A stretch of 7,537 nucleotides of DNA from assembly GCA_947259315.1 (NCBI GenBank), contig CAMYLR010000011.1, forward strand, positions 1 through 7,537, read 5' to 3'. Positions within the stretch are counted from its first letter, which is position 1; the number at the start of each line of letters is the position of its first letter. A program made the translations under genes and the position numbers. Shown here piece after piece: positions 2-7,537 of this stretch. Below the pieces are notes generated by a model, which did not search any database, was not told the DNA's origin, and saw only the letters and a program-made list of their open reading frames with translations. Source of the stretch: an uncultured Gemmatimonadales bacterium. GTDB taxonomy: Bacteria; Gemmatimonadota; Gemmatimonadetes; JACCXV01; JAHWKZ01.

Positions 2-853
2 ACTGCGGGCGACGAGCACGCTTTCCTATGGGACGGCACGATGACCGACCTCGGGACGCTTGGTGGCGATTACAGCAGGGCCTGGGCCATCAATGACGCG
101 GGCGAGGTCGTAGGCGAGAGCACGACAGCCACTGGCAGCGTTCACGCTTTCCTATACGACGGGGAGATGAGCGACATACACCCTGCGTGGGGCGGCGACG
201 AAAGCAAGGCGTACGACATCAGTGATGCGGGGGTCGTGGGGTACGGGACTGACTCTTGGGGCTCGCATCATCCTTTCCTGATGACAGACGAGTCGCATAT
301 CGACCTGGGGACGCTGGGAGGATGGTGGGCGGAGGCTTGGGGGATCAATGATGCGGGTCAGGTCGTGGGATGGAGCGACACGGATTCCGTCGGGGGGCAC
401 ACCGCGCATGCCTTCCTGTGGGACGACGGCACGATGACCGATTTGGGGACGTTGGGTGGGGAGCACAGCTACGCGTTCAGCATCAATGCTGCGGGTCAGG
501 TCGTGGGCATGAGCGAGACGGCCACGGGCGACGTGCACGCGTTCCTGTGGGACAACGGCACGATGACCGACCTCGGGACGCTGGGTGGGGACGAAAGCTG
601 GGCTTGGGCCATCAATGATGCGGGTCAGGTCGTGGGCACCAGCCAGACCGCCACGAGCTTCTGTCTCCCCGACACCGACCCGTTTAGCGGGCTCGCCTTC
701 CTGTGGAACGGCACGATGACCGAGCTCGGGACACTGGGTGGGAGTGAGAGCGGCACTGGGGGCATCAACGATGTAGGTCAGGTCGCGGGCACGAGCGAGA
801 CGGCCACGGGCCGGGAGCGCGCCACGCTCTGGACGATTGGAGCAGGCGACTAA
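2..853 (+). CDS. HAF-repeat protein, 3' part (5' end outside window)
   Basis: The reading frame is open from the left edge to a TAA at 851-853, so about 283 C-terminal residues are visible and the N-terminus, including any signal peptide, is missing. The protein is made of roughly 42-52-residue units built on HAFLWDxGTMTDLGTLGG, then a variable aromatic or acidic stretch, then INDAGQVVGxSxTATG. This is the pattern of the HAF family of extracellular repeats. Such proteins are usually predicted to be secreted and are thought to fold as beta-propeller-like or beta-rich domains; no biochemical role is established that I know of. Unit 2 is degenerate (HPAWGG replaces LGTLGG), and unit 5 carries an insertion with a Cys (SFCLPDTDPF). 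The last unit breaks off at ATLWTIGAGD, a natural-looking end. A strong terminator lies 43 bases downstream. The family assignment is firm; the function is unknown. Confidence 0.88.
   Translation, partial: TAGDEHAFLWDGTMTDLGTLGGDYSRAWAINDAGEVVGESTTATGSVHAFLYDGEMSDIHPAWGGDESKAYDISDAGVVGYGTDSWGSHHPFLMTDESHIDLGTLGGWWAEAWGINDAGQVVGWSDTDSVGGHTAHAFLWDDGTMTDLGTLGGEHSYAFSINAAGQVVGMSETATGDVHAFLWDNGTMTDLGTLGGDESWAWAINDAGQVVGTSQTATSFCLPDTDPFSGLAFLWNGTMTELGTLGGSESGTGGINDVGQVAGTSETATGRERATLWTIGAGD
17..820 (+). repeat. Six tandem HAF coding repeats
   Basis: In-frame units begin at about 17, 143, 269, 407, 536 and 692, with spacings of 126, 126, 138, 129 and 156 bases. Identity is also high at the DNA level: the core gacggcacgatgaccga and gatgcgggtcaggtcgtggg recur almost unchanged in several units. 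This points to recent duplication or gene conversion rather than only protein-level constraint. Units 4 and 5 (407-691) are the most alike and unit 2 (143-268) is the most diverged. These are coding repeats with no spacers and are not a CRISPR array. Confidence 0.85.
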
Positions 854-1319: not shown

Positions 1320-3644
1320 TCATCGCGCTTCGGTTGAAGCGGTCAGTTCTCTCTTGCCCGCTAGTTCTGGCGATACCCCACCCGGCGGCATGTGGTCGTT
1401 CAGGTACCGCGTCATGTACGTGAACAGGTGCTTGCTCGTTCCTGCTCCCTCGAAGATCCCGTGCGAGCGGTTCGGGTAAGGCAGGATCGTGAAGTACTTG
1501 TTGTGTTTGATCAGCTCATTGACCAGCTGCTCGGCGTTTTGGTAGTGGACGTTGTCGTCACCGGTTCCATGAACGATCAGCAGGTTCCCCTCCAGCCCGG
1601 ACGCGAAGTTCACGGCCGAACCCTCTACGTAATCCTCGGGGTTCTCGTCGATGAGACCCATGTACCGCTCCATGTATATCGTGTCGTAGTTCTCGAGGCG
1701 CGTGACCGCTGCGACCGAGATGCCGGTACTGTAGATCTCCGGATACCGAAAGAGGGAGTTGAGTGTTGCCCCACCGCCGCCACTCCAGCCCCACATCCCG
1801 ATCCGTGATGGGTCGACGTACGATCGCTCAGAGAGCTTCCGGGCTGCCGCGGCCAAGTCCGCACTCGAAACGGTTCCTACCTTCCGATACTGGGCCTTTC
1901 TCCAGTCGCGGCCGCGCGGACCTGGTGTTCCCCGGTTGTCGACGCTGGCCACGATGTATCCTTGTTGGTTGAGCATCATATGCCAGCCGCGGGCCCCGAA
2001 GCGCCAGCGATCCAACACGTTCTGGGCGAACGGGCCGCTGTATACGAAGAAGAACAACGGGTACTTGAGACTCGGATCGAAGTCCGGGGGATACATGATC
2101 CACGCGTCCAGCATCGCGTCTCCCACGTCCACTTGAAAGAGCTCCATGCGGCCTTGGTCCAGCTGGGAGAGCGTCTCTTTCAACCGAGCGTTATCGACGA
2201 GCACACGCTGGACCTCGTGGTCCGGCAGGCTGACCAAGCTTATGACCGGGGGCGAGGTTAGTGTCGAGTACGTGTGGATAGCGTACGCGCCGTTCGGCGA
2301 GAGGTCGTAGCTATGCGTCCCCGGCTGATCGGCCGGCGAAAGCCGGACCGGATCGCCGCCTGAAAGGGGCACCCGGTACAGATAGCGCTGCGTCGCATTG
2401 TCGGGCGACGCGATGAAGTAGACCCAACCGCCGTCCTCGTCGATCAGCTCGACGTTGACGATCTCCCAGTCACCAGACGTGATCGGCGTGAGTTCGCCAG
2501 TTTCCCGGTCTGCGGTATAGACGTGCCTCCAGCCGGTGCGCTCGCTGATCCACGTCATGCGACGGTCGCCGTCGAGCCAGATCCAATCATCGATCGCGTT
2601 CAGGTAGGCGGCGTCCGTCTCAGTGAACAAGGTGCGGGTCGCCCCGTCGTGCCCGTCACAAAGCAGCACGTGGTTCGTGTTCTGGTGGCGGTTCATACGT
2701 TGTATCGCTACCTCGTCGCCGTTCCCAGACCACTCCATGCGCGGGATGTAATTGTCCCGCTGGTCTCCGGGCACGTCGCACCACGTCGTCTCTCCGCCAC
2801 TTGCCTTTACGACGCCCACGCGCGCGGCTGAGTTGCTCGTGCCTACCTTTGGGTACTGGACGGGAATCGTGAAGGAGTAGAGCGAGTCGGTACTGTTGAT
2901 CATGTTGAAGACGCCGATGCCTTCTGCGTCGAGCTGCCAGTACGCGATCGACTCACCGTCCGGCGCCCACCGCCAGCCATCGGCTGGCAAAGGCATGAAG
3001 AACTCCTCCTCGTACACCCAATCGAAGTTGCCGTTGATGATCGTTTCCGACCCATCGAAGGTCAGTTGCACGACCTCCCCCGTCTCGACGTTCTCCACGT
3101 ACAGGTCGTTCTCGCTCACGTACGCGAAACGGTCACCGGAGGGGTCGAACTTGCCGTACATGAGGCTCGACTCAGGGCGGTCGTCGCCCATTTGCCGTAG
3201 GGCCCCCGTATCGAGGTTCAGCACCCAATAGTCCCCGCGGGAGTTGAAACGCCACACGCGCTTTGAGTTCGTGTAAATCAGCAACTTGCTGCCGTCCGGC
3301 GACCACTCGTAGTTATGGATCTCGAGCGGATCGGTGGCGCCCTCTGGCACGAGCTGAGTGGCGACTACCAGCACCTCTCGCTCGCCGGATGCGGCATCGT
3401 ACATCACGAGGTCCCGTCCAGAGCCGTTTGCACCGCTCTCTAGGGTGGTATACGCGGATCCGCTTTCCAGCCACCGCGTCGGGCCGAGCCGGTCGGGGAA
3501 GAAATCGCGGGAGTCGAACAATCGATCCAGTGTGATCTTACTGGCATCGGTCGTCTGCTGGGCGACGCTGGGGGTGGCAAGAACTAGGGCGTAGATCCCC
3601 GCCATGGCCGTCACGTAGATCTTCCATCGTCTTATGCGTTTCAT
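1320..3644 (-). CDS. Secreted dipeptidyl-peptidase IV-type serine peptidase (S9B)
   Basis: This 774-residue protein would release N-terminal dipeptides, typically X-Pro or X-Ala, from peptides in the periplasm or outside the cell. Residues 1-28 form a signal peptide: the basic start MKRIRRWK, a hydrophobic core, and probable cleavage after PSVA. The DPP-IV beta-propeller domain covers about 60-500. It contains DWVYEEEF (208-215), whose Glu213/Glu214 match the pair that holds the substrate amino terminus in human DPP4. The alpha/beta-hydrolase domain covers about 510-755. It has the oxyanion Tyr535 in VYSGP, nucleophile Ser621 in GWSGGG, Asp696 in HGTGDDNVH and His728 in RSHGI; YMERYMG is also conserved. 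The residue after the nucleophile is Gly, not the usual Tyr or Phe, as in many environmental bacterial homologues I recall. An in-frame upstream extension to 3770 exists, but the signal peptide and the ribosome binding site place the start at 3644. The gene is monocistronic and convergent with its left neighbour. Confidence 0.95.
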   Translation of the reverse strand: MKRIRRWKIYVTAMAGIYALVLATPSVAQQTTDASKITLDRLFDSRDFFPDRLGPTRWLESGSAYTTLESGANGSGRDLVMYDAASGEREVLVVATQLVPEGATDPLEIHNYEWSPDGSKLLIYTNSKRVWRFNSRGDYWVLNLDTGALRQMGDDRPESSLMYGKFDPSGDRFAYVSENDLYVENVETGEVVQLTFDGSETIINGNFDWVYEEEFFMPLPADGWRWAPDGESIAYWQLDAEGIGVFNMINSTDSLYSFTIPVQYPKVGTSNSAARVGVVKASGGETTWCDVPGDQRDNYIPRMEWSGNGDEVAIQRMNRHQNTNHVLLCDGHDGATRTLFTETDAAYLNAIDDWIWLDGDRRMTWISERTGWRHVYTADRETGELTPITSGDWEIVNVELIDEDGGWVYFIASPDNATQRYLYRVPLSGGDPVRLSPADQPGTHSYDLSPNGAYAIHTYSTLTSPPVISLVSLPDHEVQRVLVDNARLKETLSQLDQGRMELFQVDVGDAMLDAWIMYPPDFDPSLKYPLFFFVYSGPFAQNVLDRWRFGARGWHMMLNQQGYIVASVDNRGTPGPRGRDWRKAQYRKVGTVSSADLAAAARKLSERSYVDPSRIGMWGWSGGGGATLNSLFRYPEIYSTGISVAAVTRLENYDTIYMERYMGLIDENPEDYVEGSAVNFASGLEGNLLIVHGTGDDNVHYQNAEQLVNELIKHNKYFTILPYPNRSHGIFEGAGTSKHLFTYMTRYLNDHMPPGGVSPELAGKRELTASTEAR

Positions 3645-3650
3645 CGCTAG

Positions 3651-3657
3651 CCTCTCT
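3651..3657 (-). promoter_or_regulatory. Ribosome binding site fixing the peptidase start
   Basis: On the minus strand, AGAGAGG lies six bases before the ATG at 3644, directly ahead of the signal peptide. The longer in-frame alternative starting at 3770 has no comparable site and would put about 42 polar residues before the signal peptide. No convincing sigma-70 promoter was found; the AT-rich patch at 3771-3793 (TATAGA on the minus strand) is only a weak -10 candidate. Confidence 0.7.
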
Positions 3658-3856
3658 GTGGTGTCTGCGTTGGTGTAAACGCGGTTGGGGCCGCTGTCTG
3701 GATGTCGAGAAGGCTGAAAGGCCCGAACAGGCGCGCGATTCTCATCGTTCCCGCCCGTGGGTTGCGCCACCTTTCTATATGTTCAGTCTATAGCCGGTTG
3801 GATTATGGGTTCTGTCCGGCAAAACCCACTCGCAGACGTGGGAAAAACCCGTACGC

Positions 3857-4201: not shown

Positions 4202-4218
4202 TCTCCCGACTCGGGAGA
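4202..4218 (+). other. Hairpin in the leader of the HMG-CoA synthase operon
   Basis: TCTCCCG (4202-4208) and CGGGAGA (4212-4218) form a perfect 7-bp stem with an ACT loop, followed by only three T residues. It sits 46 bases before the synthase start. It could be a weak terminator isolating the operon from upstream transcription, a leader structure, or a protein-binding palindrome. A separate 10-bp palindrome, TAGGCGCCTA, lies just upstream at 4177-4186. I found no convincing -35/-10 pair between 4064 and 4250. Confidence 0.4.
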
Positions 4219-4251
4219 TTTCGCCTTCCGCCTTGTCACATGTTACTGACC

Positions 4252-4263: not shown

Positions 4264-5310
4264 ATGGCAGGCATAGCCGGTTACGGCGCCTACGTCCCCA
4301 GGAAGAGAATTCGGACCGAGGAGATCGCCCGTCAGTGGGGGAAGGACCCTGGTGCGATCGAGAGAGGGCTTCTCCTCGAGGAGAAATCGGTTCCCGGCTT
4401 CGATGAGGACACGATCACGATCTCGGTGGCGGCGGGCCATGGCGCGATCGATCGCTCGGGGGTCGATCCGCAAAGGATCGGCGCGCTCTACATCGGTTCG
4501 GAGTCGCACCCCTACGCGGTCAAGCCGAGCGGAACGGTGGTCGCCGAAGCACTGGGGATCGGCCCCGAGGTCCACATCGCGGATTTCGAGTTCGCGTGCA
4601 AGGCGGGGACGGAAGCGATGTTCGTCGCGCTGGGCTTGGTGGAGGCAGGTCGGGTCGAGTACGCGATGGCGATCGGCGCGGATACCTCCCAGGGTGCGCC
4701 CGATGACGCGCTCGAGTTCTCGGCGTCCGCGGGCGGAGCGGCGTACATCTTCGGGGTGGATCATGTGGTTGCGGAGGTGGTGGAGACGTACAGCTACACG
4801 TCGGACACGCCGGACTTCTGGCGGCGAGAGGGCGAGTTCTACCCGCGGCACGGGGGTCGGTTCACCGGTCAGCCCGCCTACTTCAAGCACGTGCTCACCG
4901 CGAGCCGCGCGATCATGGAGAAGACCGGTCTTACGGCCGACGACTTCGCCTACGCGGTCTTCCACATGCCCAACGGCAAGTTCCCGCTGACGGCCGGCAA
5001 GCAACTCGGCTTCCGCAAGGAGCAGCTGGAAACGGGGTGGGTGGTTCCGACGATGGGCAACACGTACTCGGGCTCTTCGCCCACGGGGCTGGCCGCGATC
5101 CTCGACATCGCCAAACCGGGCGACCTGATCTTGATCACGTCGTTTGGCTCGGGTGCGGGCAGCGACTCGTTCGTGCTACGGGCGACGGACCGGCTCCCCG
5201 AGGTACAGGACTTGGCACCGACCGTGTGTTCGATGCTCGAAGGCTCGCGGCAGTACGTCACCTACGGCGAGTACGCCAAGTTCCGCGAGAAGATCATCGC
5301 CAATGATTGA
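4264..5310 (+). CDS. Hydroxymethylglutaryl-CoA synthase, archaeal type
   Basis: At 348 residues this matches archaeal-type HMG-CoA synthases rather than the longer eukaryotic or Gram-positive forms. The enzyme condenses acetyl-CoA with acetoacetyl-CoA to give HMG-CoA. It belongs to the thiolase-fold initiation enzymes. The start [14 protein letters not shown] is typical. Catalytic candidates are Glu80 in [11 protein letters not shown], nucleophile Cys112 in [14 protein letters not shown], and His234 in [10 protein letters not shown]. All three residues of the Glu/Cys/His set are present, and [13 protein letters not shown] (264-276) and [12 protein letters not shown] (292-303) fit the C-terminal half. 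It is the first gene of an operon, and the thiolase start follows its stop by 20 bases. The conserved HMGS residues argue against a PhlA-type acyltransferase, a related protein in a similar three-gene set. The specific substrate in this organism is inferred. Confidence 0.88.
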
Positions 5311-5317
5311 TGCCGAC

Positions 5318-5322
5318 AGGAG
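5318..5322 (+). promoter_or_regulatory. Ribosome binding site fixing the thiolase start
   Basis: AGGAG lies eight bases before the ATG at 5331. Upstream in-frame TTG and ATG codons at 5307 and 5310 would overlap the synthase stop, have no properly spaced site of their own, and add residues (MMPTGDIR) not seen before the family-typical [15 protein letters not shown]. Confidence 0.8.
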
Positions 5323-5330
5323 ACATCCGC

Positions 5331-6479
5331 ATGCGTGACGTCGCGATCGTCGGAGCCGGGATGACGCGGTTCGGTGAGCTCTGGGATCAGGGGTTGCGCG
5401 ACATGTTCGTCGAGGCGGCGTCGGGCGCGCTGAGTGACGCCGGCGCGGACCGCCTCGACTCGCTGTACGTGGGGTGCATGTCGGGCGGCCAATTCGTGGG
5501 GCAGGAGCACCTCGGCCCGTTGATGGCCGACCATTTGGGCATGACCGGGGTGGCCGCGGTGCACGTGGAGTCGGCTTGCGCCTCGGGCGGGGTCGCTCTG
5601 CGACAGGCGTTCCTCGAGGTGGGGTCGGGGATGAGCGATCTGGTGCTGGCCGCCGGGGTCGAGAAGATGAACGACGGCGCAGACGTCACCAACGTGTTGG
5701 CGACCGCCGCCGATCAGGAGCTGGAAGTCTACTACGGAGTGACGTTCCCCGGACTGTACGCGATGATCGCCCGCGCGCACATGCAGCACCACGGCACGAC
5801 CGAGGAGGACCTGGCGTGGGTCGCCGTCAAAAACCATCACCACGGGGCGATGAACGACAAGGCCCAGTTTCGTCGCGAGGTGACCCCTGAACAGGTGATG
5901 GCATCGTCGCTGGTGTCGGAGCCGCTCCGCCTGCTCCACTGCTCACCGGTGACCGACGGTGCCGCCGCCGTCCTGCTCTGTCCCCTCGAGATGGCGAAGG
6001 AGTTCACCGACCGGCCGGTAAAGATCGTCGCCAGTGGGCTGGCGAGCGGTTCGATGGCGCTGGCTGACCGTGACGACCCCGCTTTTCTCGATGCCGTTCA
6101 GAAGTCGGGCCAGCGGGCGTTCGAGATGGCCGACATCGGCCCGCCGGACGTCGACGTGGCCGAAGTACACGATTGCTTTACGATCGCCGAGATCTGCTGC
6201 ATCGAGGCGTTGGGGTTCGTCGAGGAGGGCAAGGGGGGTCCAGCCGCGCGCGATGGGCTCACGGCGATCGGCGGCCGGATCCCGGTGAATACCAGCGGCG
6301 GCCTGAAGTCTAAAGGGCACCCGGTGGGCGCGACCGGCATCGCTCAGACGATAGAGATCTTCCGCCAGCTGCAGGGTGAGGCCGGTCAACGGCAGGTCGA
6401 GAACGCCCGTGTCGGGTTGGCTCAGAACATGGGCGGATCGGGAGCGAGCTCCGTGGTCCACATTTTCGAAGGGGTGTGA
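5331..6479 (+). CDS. Acetyl-CoA acetyltransferase, archaeal/SCP2-type thiolase
   Basis: This 382-residue thiolase would join two acetyl-CoA into acetoacetyl-CoA, the substrate of the synthase encoded just before it. The nucleophile is Cys83 in ESACASGG. His280 and Cys282 lie in [10 protein letters not shown], and His330 lies in [14 protein letters not shown]. The HDCF motif and the lack of the usual CxG cysteine near the C-terminus (NMGGSGAS, 367-374, instead) mark the SCP2/archaeal branch, where the HDCF cysteine is taken as the acid/base residue. SCP2-type thiolases with a DUF35 partner also serve other pathways, including steroid side-chain cleavage; the adjacent HMGS gene favours acetoacetyl-CoA synthesis. 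The stop at 6477-6479 is two bases from the next start, indicating translational coupling. Confidence 0.88.
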
Positions 6480-6481
6480 TC

Positions 6482-6871
6482 ATGCCCAGTCCCAGGTACA
6501 CCCGAGAGATCCCCGCTCGCTACCGTCTGGAGGCGGCTCGCTGTAGCGGTTGCAGCAAAGTCGTTTTTCCGATCCGGCGGTTCTGCCCCTCGTGCCGGGG
6601 CGAGGAGTTCGAGAAGCTGACGCTTTCGCGTAAGGGCAAGGTGGTCACATCGACGGTCGTACACGTTCCTCCCGACGATTTTCTGATGGAGGCACCGTAC
6701 GCCATGGCGGTGGTGGAGACGCCCGAAGGCGCTCGCCTCATGACCCAGGTCGTTGACTGCGATCCGTCCGCGGTACTCCCGGGGATGGACGTCGCACTCG
6801 AATTCCGCCTGATCCGCAGAGAGGGCCACAGCGGGATCCTCTGCTACGGCCACAAGGGAGTGCCGGCTTAA
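6482..6871 (+). CDS. DUF35 zinc-ribbon/OB-fold protein, partner of the thiolase and synthase
   Basis: This 129-residue protein has the two-part DUF35 layout. The N-terminal helix and rubredoxin-like zinc ribbon carry Cys21, Cys24, Cys35 and Cys38 (CSGC and CPSC). A C-terminal OB-fold spans about 45-125 (KGKVVTSTVV, APYAMAVVETPEG, LPGMDVALEFRL, GILCYGHKG). In the archaeal thiolase/HMG-CoA synthase complex, DUF35 bridges the two enzymes and helps form the shared CoA site that passes acetoacetyl-CoA between them. It is not an enzyme by itself. The start at 6482 is supported by AAGGGG at 6469-6474 inside the end of the thiolase gene. A GTG at 6476 is in frame but only one base from that motif. 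Two of the zinc cysteines could be checked by structure; all four are present here. Confidence 0.88.
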   Translation: MPSPRYTREIPARYRLEAARCSGCSKVVFPIRRFCPSCRGEEFEKLTLSRKGKVVTSTVVHVPPDDFLMEAPYAMAVVETPEGARLMTQVVDCDPSAVLPGMDVALEFRLIRREGHSGILCYGHKGVPA

Positions 6872-6884
6872 CAGGAGAGTCTCG

Positions 6885-7067
6885 ATGCACAAGGTCAAGG
6901 TCCTGGCAGAGCTCACCGACGAGCACTACCGGGCATATGAGCATGAAGCGAAGCGTCGCGGGGTCAAGATCGAAGAGCTCGTGCAGCAAACGGTGAACTG
7001 CTTGCTCCGGGAGCTCGAGCAGGAAGAGGAGGACGCGGGCCCCGACGAGTTCATCAGCGTCTCCTAA
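6885..7067 (+). CDS. Small ribbon-helix-helix-like protein
   Basis: The gene encodes 60 residues, starts 13 bases after the DUF35 stop and has its own AGGAG at 6873-6877, so it is very probably the fourth gene of the operon. The pattern fits a ribbon-helix-helix DNA-binding dimer: a short strand (HKVKVLAEL, 2-10), helix A (DEHYRAYEHEAKRRG, 12-26), a turn at VKI, and helix B (EELVQQTVNCLLREL, 30-44). An acidic tail follows (EQEEEDAGPDEF). If it binds DNA it could be an autoregulator of the operon. It could instead be a small structural or antitoxin-like protein, though no toxin gene is adjacent. I do not recognise a specific family, and the fold call rests on helix pattern alone. Confidence 0.6.
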   Translation: MHKVKVLAELTDEHYRAYEHEAKRRGVKIEELVQQTVNCLLRELEQEEEDAGPDEFISVS

Positions 7068-7229: not shown

Positions 7230-7344
7230 GAGTCGATAAGAAGCAAACCCGCCGAAAGACGGGGACGCAAAGCCACGGGTCCTCGCTTGCCCCGTGACCC
7301 TTCAACGACGTCACGGAGAGGCAAGACCGCCGAGCTGCCGACAC
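7230..7344 (+). ncRNA. Cyclic-di-GMP-I (GEMM-I) riboswitch
   Basis: The conserved core is present in order: GCAAACC (7243-7249), a stem CCCG/CGGG (7248-7251 with 7260-7263) capped by a GAAA tetraloop (7254-7257), then GGACGCAAAGCC (7263-7274). A long second stem follows: GGT (7278-7280) with ACC (7326-7328), a 5-base CCTCG bulge where the tetraloop receptor belongs, CTTGCC (7286-7291) with GGCAAG (7320-7325), and CCGTGAC (7292-7298) with GTCACGG (7310-7316). The closing helix pairs GTCG (7232-7235) with CGAC (7339-7342) and AGC (7242-7244) with GCT (7334-7336). The RNA senses cyclic di-GMP and controls the gene downstream. The base before CAAACC, which I align with position 20 of the Vc2 riboswitch, is G, favouring c-di-GMP over cGAMP. 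The start of the adjacent lipoprotein gene is 63 bases away. Confidence 0.85.
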
Positions 7345-7406: not shown

Positions 7407-7537
7407 ATGCGTTTCACAAAACTGTTCGCGCTTGCCGTGGCGACACCGATACTGTTCGCGGCCTGTCAGGACAACGCCGATATGCCGACGGCACTGGACG
7501 ACAGGGTGCTGCAGCCGGCCGATGCTGCGATCGTCAT
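7407..7537 (+). CDS. Putative lipoprotein, N-terminal part (runs off window)
   Basis: The first 43 residues are visible. They begin with a lipoprotein-type signal: MRFTK, a hydrophobic core (LFALAVATPILFA) and Cys20 in LFAAC as the likely lipidated residue. Phe at -3 is less usual than Leu, so an ordinary signal peptide remains possible. The mature start, QDNADMPTALDDRVLQPAD, is polar and linker-like, typical of envelope-anchored proteins. No domain can be named from this fragment. The gene follows a GEMM-I riboswitch, which suggests that its amount follows cyclic di-GMP, as for adhesins, matrix, secretion or motility-related envelope proteins. That role is inferred from the riboswitch, not from the protein. 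Confidence 0.75.
   Translation, partial: MRFTKLFALAVATPILFAACQDNADMPTALDDRVLQPADAAIV

Follow-up and report, generated by a model that had tools for sequence, protein, structure and literature searches.

Archaea assemble HMG-CoA synthase (HMGS), acetoacetyl-CoA thiolase and a DUF35 scaffold protein into one complex, solved as 6ESQ and 6ET9, in which HMGS drives an otherwise unfavourable thiolase reaction. The overall conversion of three acetyl-CoA to HMG-CoA and two CoA lies near balance. HMG-CoA lyase, which also acts on HMG-CoA, yields free acetoacetate that needs re-activation. Annotation models assign the HMGS operon to the mevalonate pathway, and so does at least one paper (PMC7852524), in which archaeal-type HMGS and thiolase were seen in Ca. 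Cloacimonetes together with a full MEP pathway and were counted under mevalonate.

An operon of this type occurs in an uncultured Gemmatimonadales bacterium, within a stretch of 7,537 nucleotides (the window) that forms the start of contig C11 in a host genome of 2.40 Mb that is 96% complete. We infer both a substrate and a direction for the encoded complex: with a probability of about 0.5, it would serve to cleave HMG-CoA during leucine/isovalerate (branched-chain acyl-CoA) catabolism. Among open-licence papers, no published proposal of a degradative role for the HMGS complex was found.

The operon and its flanks

The HMGS, thiolase and DUF35 genes lie back to back (Table 1), with gaps of 20 bases between HMGS and thiolase and 2 bases between thiolase and DUF35, as an earlier note on this DNA had described, and all three proteins find their best solved match in a single structure, the archaeal complex 6ESQ. 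In profile searches, HMGS clears the cut-off of 353 for TIGR00748, the equivalog for archaeal HMGS, with 526 bits, and it reaches 445 bits against the HMGS of 6ESQ (chain I). With residues counted from the start at 4264, its Glu80, Cys112 and His234 fall on the catalytic Glu, Cys and His in both S. aureus HMGS (1XPK) and the HMGS of 6ESQ, and the triad is invariant in 10 diverse relatives. An in-frame ATG is present upstream at 4240; relatives start at the codon at 4264, which is preceded by GAGGAGG.

The thiolase matches 6ESQ chain A at 357 bits and retains the catalytic Cys (ESACASG), His (EVHDCF) and His (KGHP). It lies above the cut-off of the subfamily model NF004720 (526 bits) and scores 517 bits against NF053570, the archaeal acetyl-CoA acetyltransferase equivalog, for which the cut-off is 600. 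Because it falls below this strict cut-off, the substrate assignment is likely rather than proven. The DUF35 protein is above the cut-off for both PF12172 and PF01796, and matches 6ESQ chain E at 103 bits with all four zinc Cys aligned. The alignments to 1XPK and 6ESQ thus bear out the earlier claim that the key catalytic and zinc residues are intact. Chance is excluded as an origin of the arrangement, since the frames are open, ribosome-binding sites are present and the HMGS/thiolase/DUF35 order is kept in 69 of 80 relatives. By sequence, the operon encodes a genuine archaeal-type HMGS/thiolase/DUF35 set, whose products would be expected to form the corresponding complex.

A fourth gene, encoding a 60-aa protein, begins 13 bases 3′ of DUF35 behind the ribosome-binding site AGGAGAG. 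It occupies the equivalent position in eight of the nine nearest relatives (L044-L051), with 37-73% identity, and belongs to the HMGS operon. A Pfam search with the protein gave no match; by eye, one might guess at a ribbon-helix-helix-like fold. The perfect palindrome 5′ of HMGS, for which 0.10 matches are expected when up to 3 mismatches are allowed, is a possible operator; when looked for in relatives it was not conserved.

Other elements in the window were considered and set aside. The canonical c-di-GMP-I riboswitch was rejected as a regulator of the operon, as it is located 3′ of the operon and is oriented towards the following gene; it precedes a lipoprotein-like ORF, which begins at 7407 and enters an N gap just past the window end. 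A tie between the operon and the flanking S9 peptidase or HAF-repeat protein was likewise rejected, as neither is a consistent neighbour in relatives. At the loci L030 and L044, there is a further HAF-like ORF close to the operon.

Table 1. Features of the window and of two further host contigs
Feature	Position	Strand	Basis or remark
HAF-repeat protein	41-853	+	TIGR02913, six repeats
Dipeptidyl peptidase IV-like S9 peptidase	1320-3770	-	Domain search
Perfect 17-base palindrome, TCTCCCGA-C-TCGGGAGA	4202-4218		45 bases 5′ of HMGS start
Archaeal-type HMG-CoA synthase (HMGS), 348 aa	4264-5310	+	TIGR00748; triad Glu80, Cys112, His234
SCP2-like acetoacetyl-CoA thiolase, archaeal complex type, 382 aa	5331-6479	+	6ESQ chain A; NF004720
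DUF35 / ChsH2-like zinc-ribbon and OB-fold scaffold protein, 129 aa from ATG 6482	6482-6871	+	PF12172, PF01796; 6ESQ chain E
Fourth operon gene, 60-aa protein	6885-7067	+	Place and sequence kept in relatives
c-di-GMP-I riboswitch, canonical	7232-7342	+	RF01051, 55.8 bits
LeuA-like PF00682 protein, 416 aa	L038:1420-2670 (host contig C12)		Only HMGL-superfamily protein in host genome
MCC-beta-like carboxylase, 544 aa	Host contig C21, locus L176		Nearest MCC-beta by bits

Carboxylase linkage and the proposed catabolic role

A scan of one genome per species returned at least 540 confirmed stretches carrying the operon, 80 of which were examined; the genomes behind them are mostly metagenome bins. 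These loci come from Gemmatimonadota, Acidobacteriota, WOR-3/Stahlbacteria, Cloacimonadota, Ignavibacteriota, Aminicenantes, Krumholzibacteriota, Coatesbacteria and others. Among 61 relatives chosen by kinship the distribution is patchy (3 genomes above the cut-off, 2 with broken or split copies). The clade that holds the window HMGS in the HMGS tree is supported and has ten rows, from Gemmatimonadota and Acidobacteriota.

A methylcrotonyl-CoA carboxylase (MCC)-beta-like gene is found within about 2-7 kb of the cassette at about 22 of the 80 loci, a count that becomes 26 if four genes at about 8 kb on the opposite strand are included. Genes for BC, BCCP and enoyl-CoA hydratase accompany it in 20-22 loci, mostly on the same strand, in the order HMGS-thiolase-DUF35-carboxylase-hydratase-BC-BCCP. 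By chance, well under one such linkage would be expected in 80 loci, as estimated for a gene that occurs about once in 3 Mb and a span of 16 kb. The linkage changes 10 times on the HMGS tree, and linked loci are found in both deep bacterial clades. The linked carboxylase scores 724 bits against P. aeruginosa MCC-beta, 435 against GCC and below 275 against other PCC entries; it also scores 731 bits against 9TPS, an entry named PCC-beta. It is, as far as these scores predict, MCC-like. The operons of WOR-3/Stahlbacteria also hold genes for alanine dehydrogenase, an acetyl-CoA hydrolase/transferase-family protein, methylmalonyl-CoA mutase and epimerase, and a Met gamma-lyase-like protein (the last two named by eye), neighbours whose predicted functions form a catabolic setting. 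AtuA lies near HMGS in eight of the 80 loci, mostly in Ignavibacteria and relatives. Neither the window operon nor any of its nine nearest relatives adjoins carboxylase genes.

The distribution of HMG-CoA lyase was followed with NF004283, with presence set at no less than 150 bits. The enzyme is absent from 42 of 53 operon carriers and found together with HMGS in the other 11. Neither HMG-CoA lyase nor AtuA is present in 16 of 17 carboxylase-linked genomes, compared with 9 of 36 unlinked ones (Fisher p 2e-6 with kinship ignored; once shared ancestry is accounted for, there are 3 independent contrasts, too few to test the association between linkage and lyase). No candidate for consuming HMG-CoA other than HMGS with thiolase was found here in the linked genomes. 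The host genome has no match to NF004283 at E 1e-10. Its only HMGL-superfamily protein, the LeuA-like protein of contig C12, which has no clear assignment, was rejected as a hidden HMG-CoA lyase, with 28 bits against HMG-CoA lyase and more than 180 against several LeuA/homocitrate models; the host may also lack a normal LeuA.

Because the operon is widespread in genomes without HMG-CoA reductase, and often occurs with MCC and hydratase or with AtuA, a catabolic role at HMG-CoA fits best. MCC and hydratase would produce HMG-CoA. HMGS running in reverse would then convert HMG-CoA and CoA to acetyl-CoA and acetoacetyl-CoA, and the bound thiolase would cleave the latter to two acetyl-CoA, so that the net reaction would be HMG-CoA + 2 CoA → 3 acetyl-CoA. 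The complex would thereby replace HMG-CoA lyase, or assist in HMG-CoA cleavage in the host genome, and would spare the cell the cost of acetoacetate re-activation. Such reverse flux would be feasible because the overall reaction is near balance and HMG-CoA would be supplied by an ATP-driven carboxylase; that HMGS is usually drawn as a forward enzyme counts against it. Across many phyla, there is then an even chance that the complex is a catabolic, CoA-conserving replacement for HMG-CoA lyase, taking leucine or isovalerate to three acetyl-CoA. For the host genome the catabolic reading is weaker, since its operon is unlinked and AtuA is present; the same job as in the linked operons is assumed by extension from them.

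Alternative uses of the complex

As AtuA is present, HMGS is not the sole candidate for cleaving HMG-CoA in the host. The host's own MCC-beta-like carboxylase (Table 1) shares a stretch of 8 kb on contig C21 with AtuA and a hydratase. It scores 383 bits against MCC-beta, 358 against 9TPS (named PCC-beta), 276 against PCC and 273 against GCC, is 39% identical to the linked MCC-beta and is, on these scores, a putative divergent MCC. Sequence comparison did not resolve the hydratase substrate. A cluster that looks like one for branched-chain amino-acid catabolism is seen in the relative G048, where genes for carboxylase, AtuA, AtuA-C and hydratase stand beside B12-binding and methylmalonyl-CoA mutase genes. 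AtuA (DUF1446) is near-universal in the class (relatives G001-G056 and the host), where it adjoins hydratase and MCC-like carboxylase genes. It may itself take the place of the lyase when branched-chain compounds are broken down.

A less likely reading is that AtuA rather than HMGS cleaves HMG-CoA in the host, and that HMGS, thiolase and DUF35 balance acetoacetyl-CoA and HMG-CoA or serve a separate minor product. The position of AtuA near the MCC-like carboxylase and hydratase in the host, and next to them in G048, favours this, as does its distribution: of 27 class members that lack the operon, 24 have AtuA, and both class genomes with HMG-CoA lyase are without it. The activity of AtuA is, however, an annotation; 16 of the 17 carboxylase-linked HMGS genomes have no AtuA, and its place beside HMGS in seven or eight other loci suggests a joint role.

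A forward, anabolic use is similarly doubtful. Serving a product other than isoprenoids, HMG-CoA made from acetyl-CoA would undergo dehydration and decarboxylation to 3-methylcrotonyl-CoA and isovaleryl-CoA, a starter for iso-branched fatty acids, with a reversed carboxylase replacing the myxobacterial AibA/B. Such a route would suit the usual forward direction of HMGS, the hydratase and MCC-like genes found in the host and next to the operon in relatives, and the stand-alone Gemmatimonadota cassettes. On the other hand, ATP-driven carboxylases and amino-acid-catabolism neighbours indicate breakdown, and no protein of the CoA-transferase family PF01144, to which an AibA/B-type decarboxylase would belong, was found in any of 16 genomes (the host and 15 others). 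The host thus lacks AibA/B and a succinyl-CoA:acetoacetate transferase (SCOT) of that family. The myxobacterial isovaleryl-CoA route, one of the outlets proposed in the earlier note, was rejected because its AibA/AibB-type decarboxylase is missing.

A mevalonate pathway that has diverged, or that lies in the missing parts of the assembly, is very improbable. TIGR00748 is named for a mevalonate enzyme, the Ca. Cloacimonetes HMGS and thiolase were filed under mevalonate (PMC7852524), and a class I-like HMG-CoA reductase occurs in G054, a relative from the same class. Against this, the 96% complete host genome contains no candidate for HMG-CoA reductase (PF00368) and no mevalonate-type GHMP kinase or decarboxylase, its single GHMP match being IspE as read by eye, and it has the MEP genes IspG and IspE. 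The absence of HMG-CoA reductase, kinase and lyase genes, reported before for the window, therefore extends to the genome, and the suggestion that the product feeds a bacterial mevalonate route is excluded at that level. HMG-CoA reductase was also not found in 43 of 50 other operon-bearing genomes, and IspG is present in 47 of 53. The operon was accordingly rejected as a mevalonate operon, and the archaeal-type complex is most likely uncoupled from the mevalonate pathway in the host. The HMG-CoA reductase of G054 (L043) lies between CDP-alcohol phosphatidyltransferase-like and ABC permease-like ORFs, and no mevalonate setting was seen at that locus.

A PhlACB-like acyltransferase complex or other non-HMGS condensation, also raised before, is the least credible reading: the three-part layout is identical and PhlA is the second-best solved relative of HMGS, but the Glu, Cys and His kept in the window HMGS are gone from PhlA, which scores 193 bits compared with 445 for archaeal HMGS. 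Taken together, the earlier interpretation was sound in recognizing intact archaeal partners and in making the use of their product the question; its three outlets are excluded or disfavoured, and the catabolic role was not foreseen.

Significance and relation to known systems

If the catabolic reading is true, many bacterial genomes have been credited with a mevalonate pathway that they do not have, and an enzyme taught as one-directional would run backwards in nature. A missing step of leucine degradation would be filled in many uncultured phyla, with one more thioester kept per leucine. AtuA, whose function is unsettled, would become a testable second lyase substitute.

PhlACB shares a homologous three-part layout with the operon and differs in that PhlA lacks the catalytic Glu, Cys and His of HMGS. 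The myxobacterial isovaleryl-CoA pathway (MvaS, LiuC, AibA/B, AibC) is similar in using HMG-CoA without HMG-CoA reductase; it differs in that no PF01144 protein is present here to serve as AibA/B. The Atu (acyclic terpene utilisation) pathway resembles the clusters of AtuA, carboxylase and hydratase in the host and its class, and the Ignavibacteria-type loci in which AtuA is near HMGS. Unlike in the Atu pathway, the host carboxylase is nearer to MCC than to GCC (383 and 273 bits), and HMGS lies outside that pathway.

The Liu (leucine/isovalerate utilisation) pathway, in which LiuE is the HMG-CoA lyase, is matched by the MCC and hydratase genes that adjoin the cassette in many relatives and by the MCC-like carboxylase, hydratase and AtuA located elsewhere in the host. 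In contrast to the Liu pathway, the host has no HMG-CoA lyase, and HMGS with thiolase would give three acetyl-CoA instead of acetyl-CoA and acetoacetate. The closest system is the archaeal complex, which agrees with the operon in best solved matches, in catalytic and zinc residues and in having its three genes back to back. The host departs from it in lacking HMG-CoA reductase and mevalonate kinases and in using the MEP route. In addition, a conserved fourth gene for the 60-aa protein is present here, and bacterial relatives join the cassette to carboxylase and hydratase or to AtuA. The complex itself is already known.
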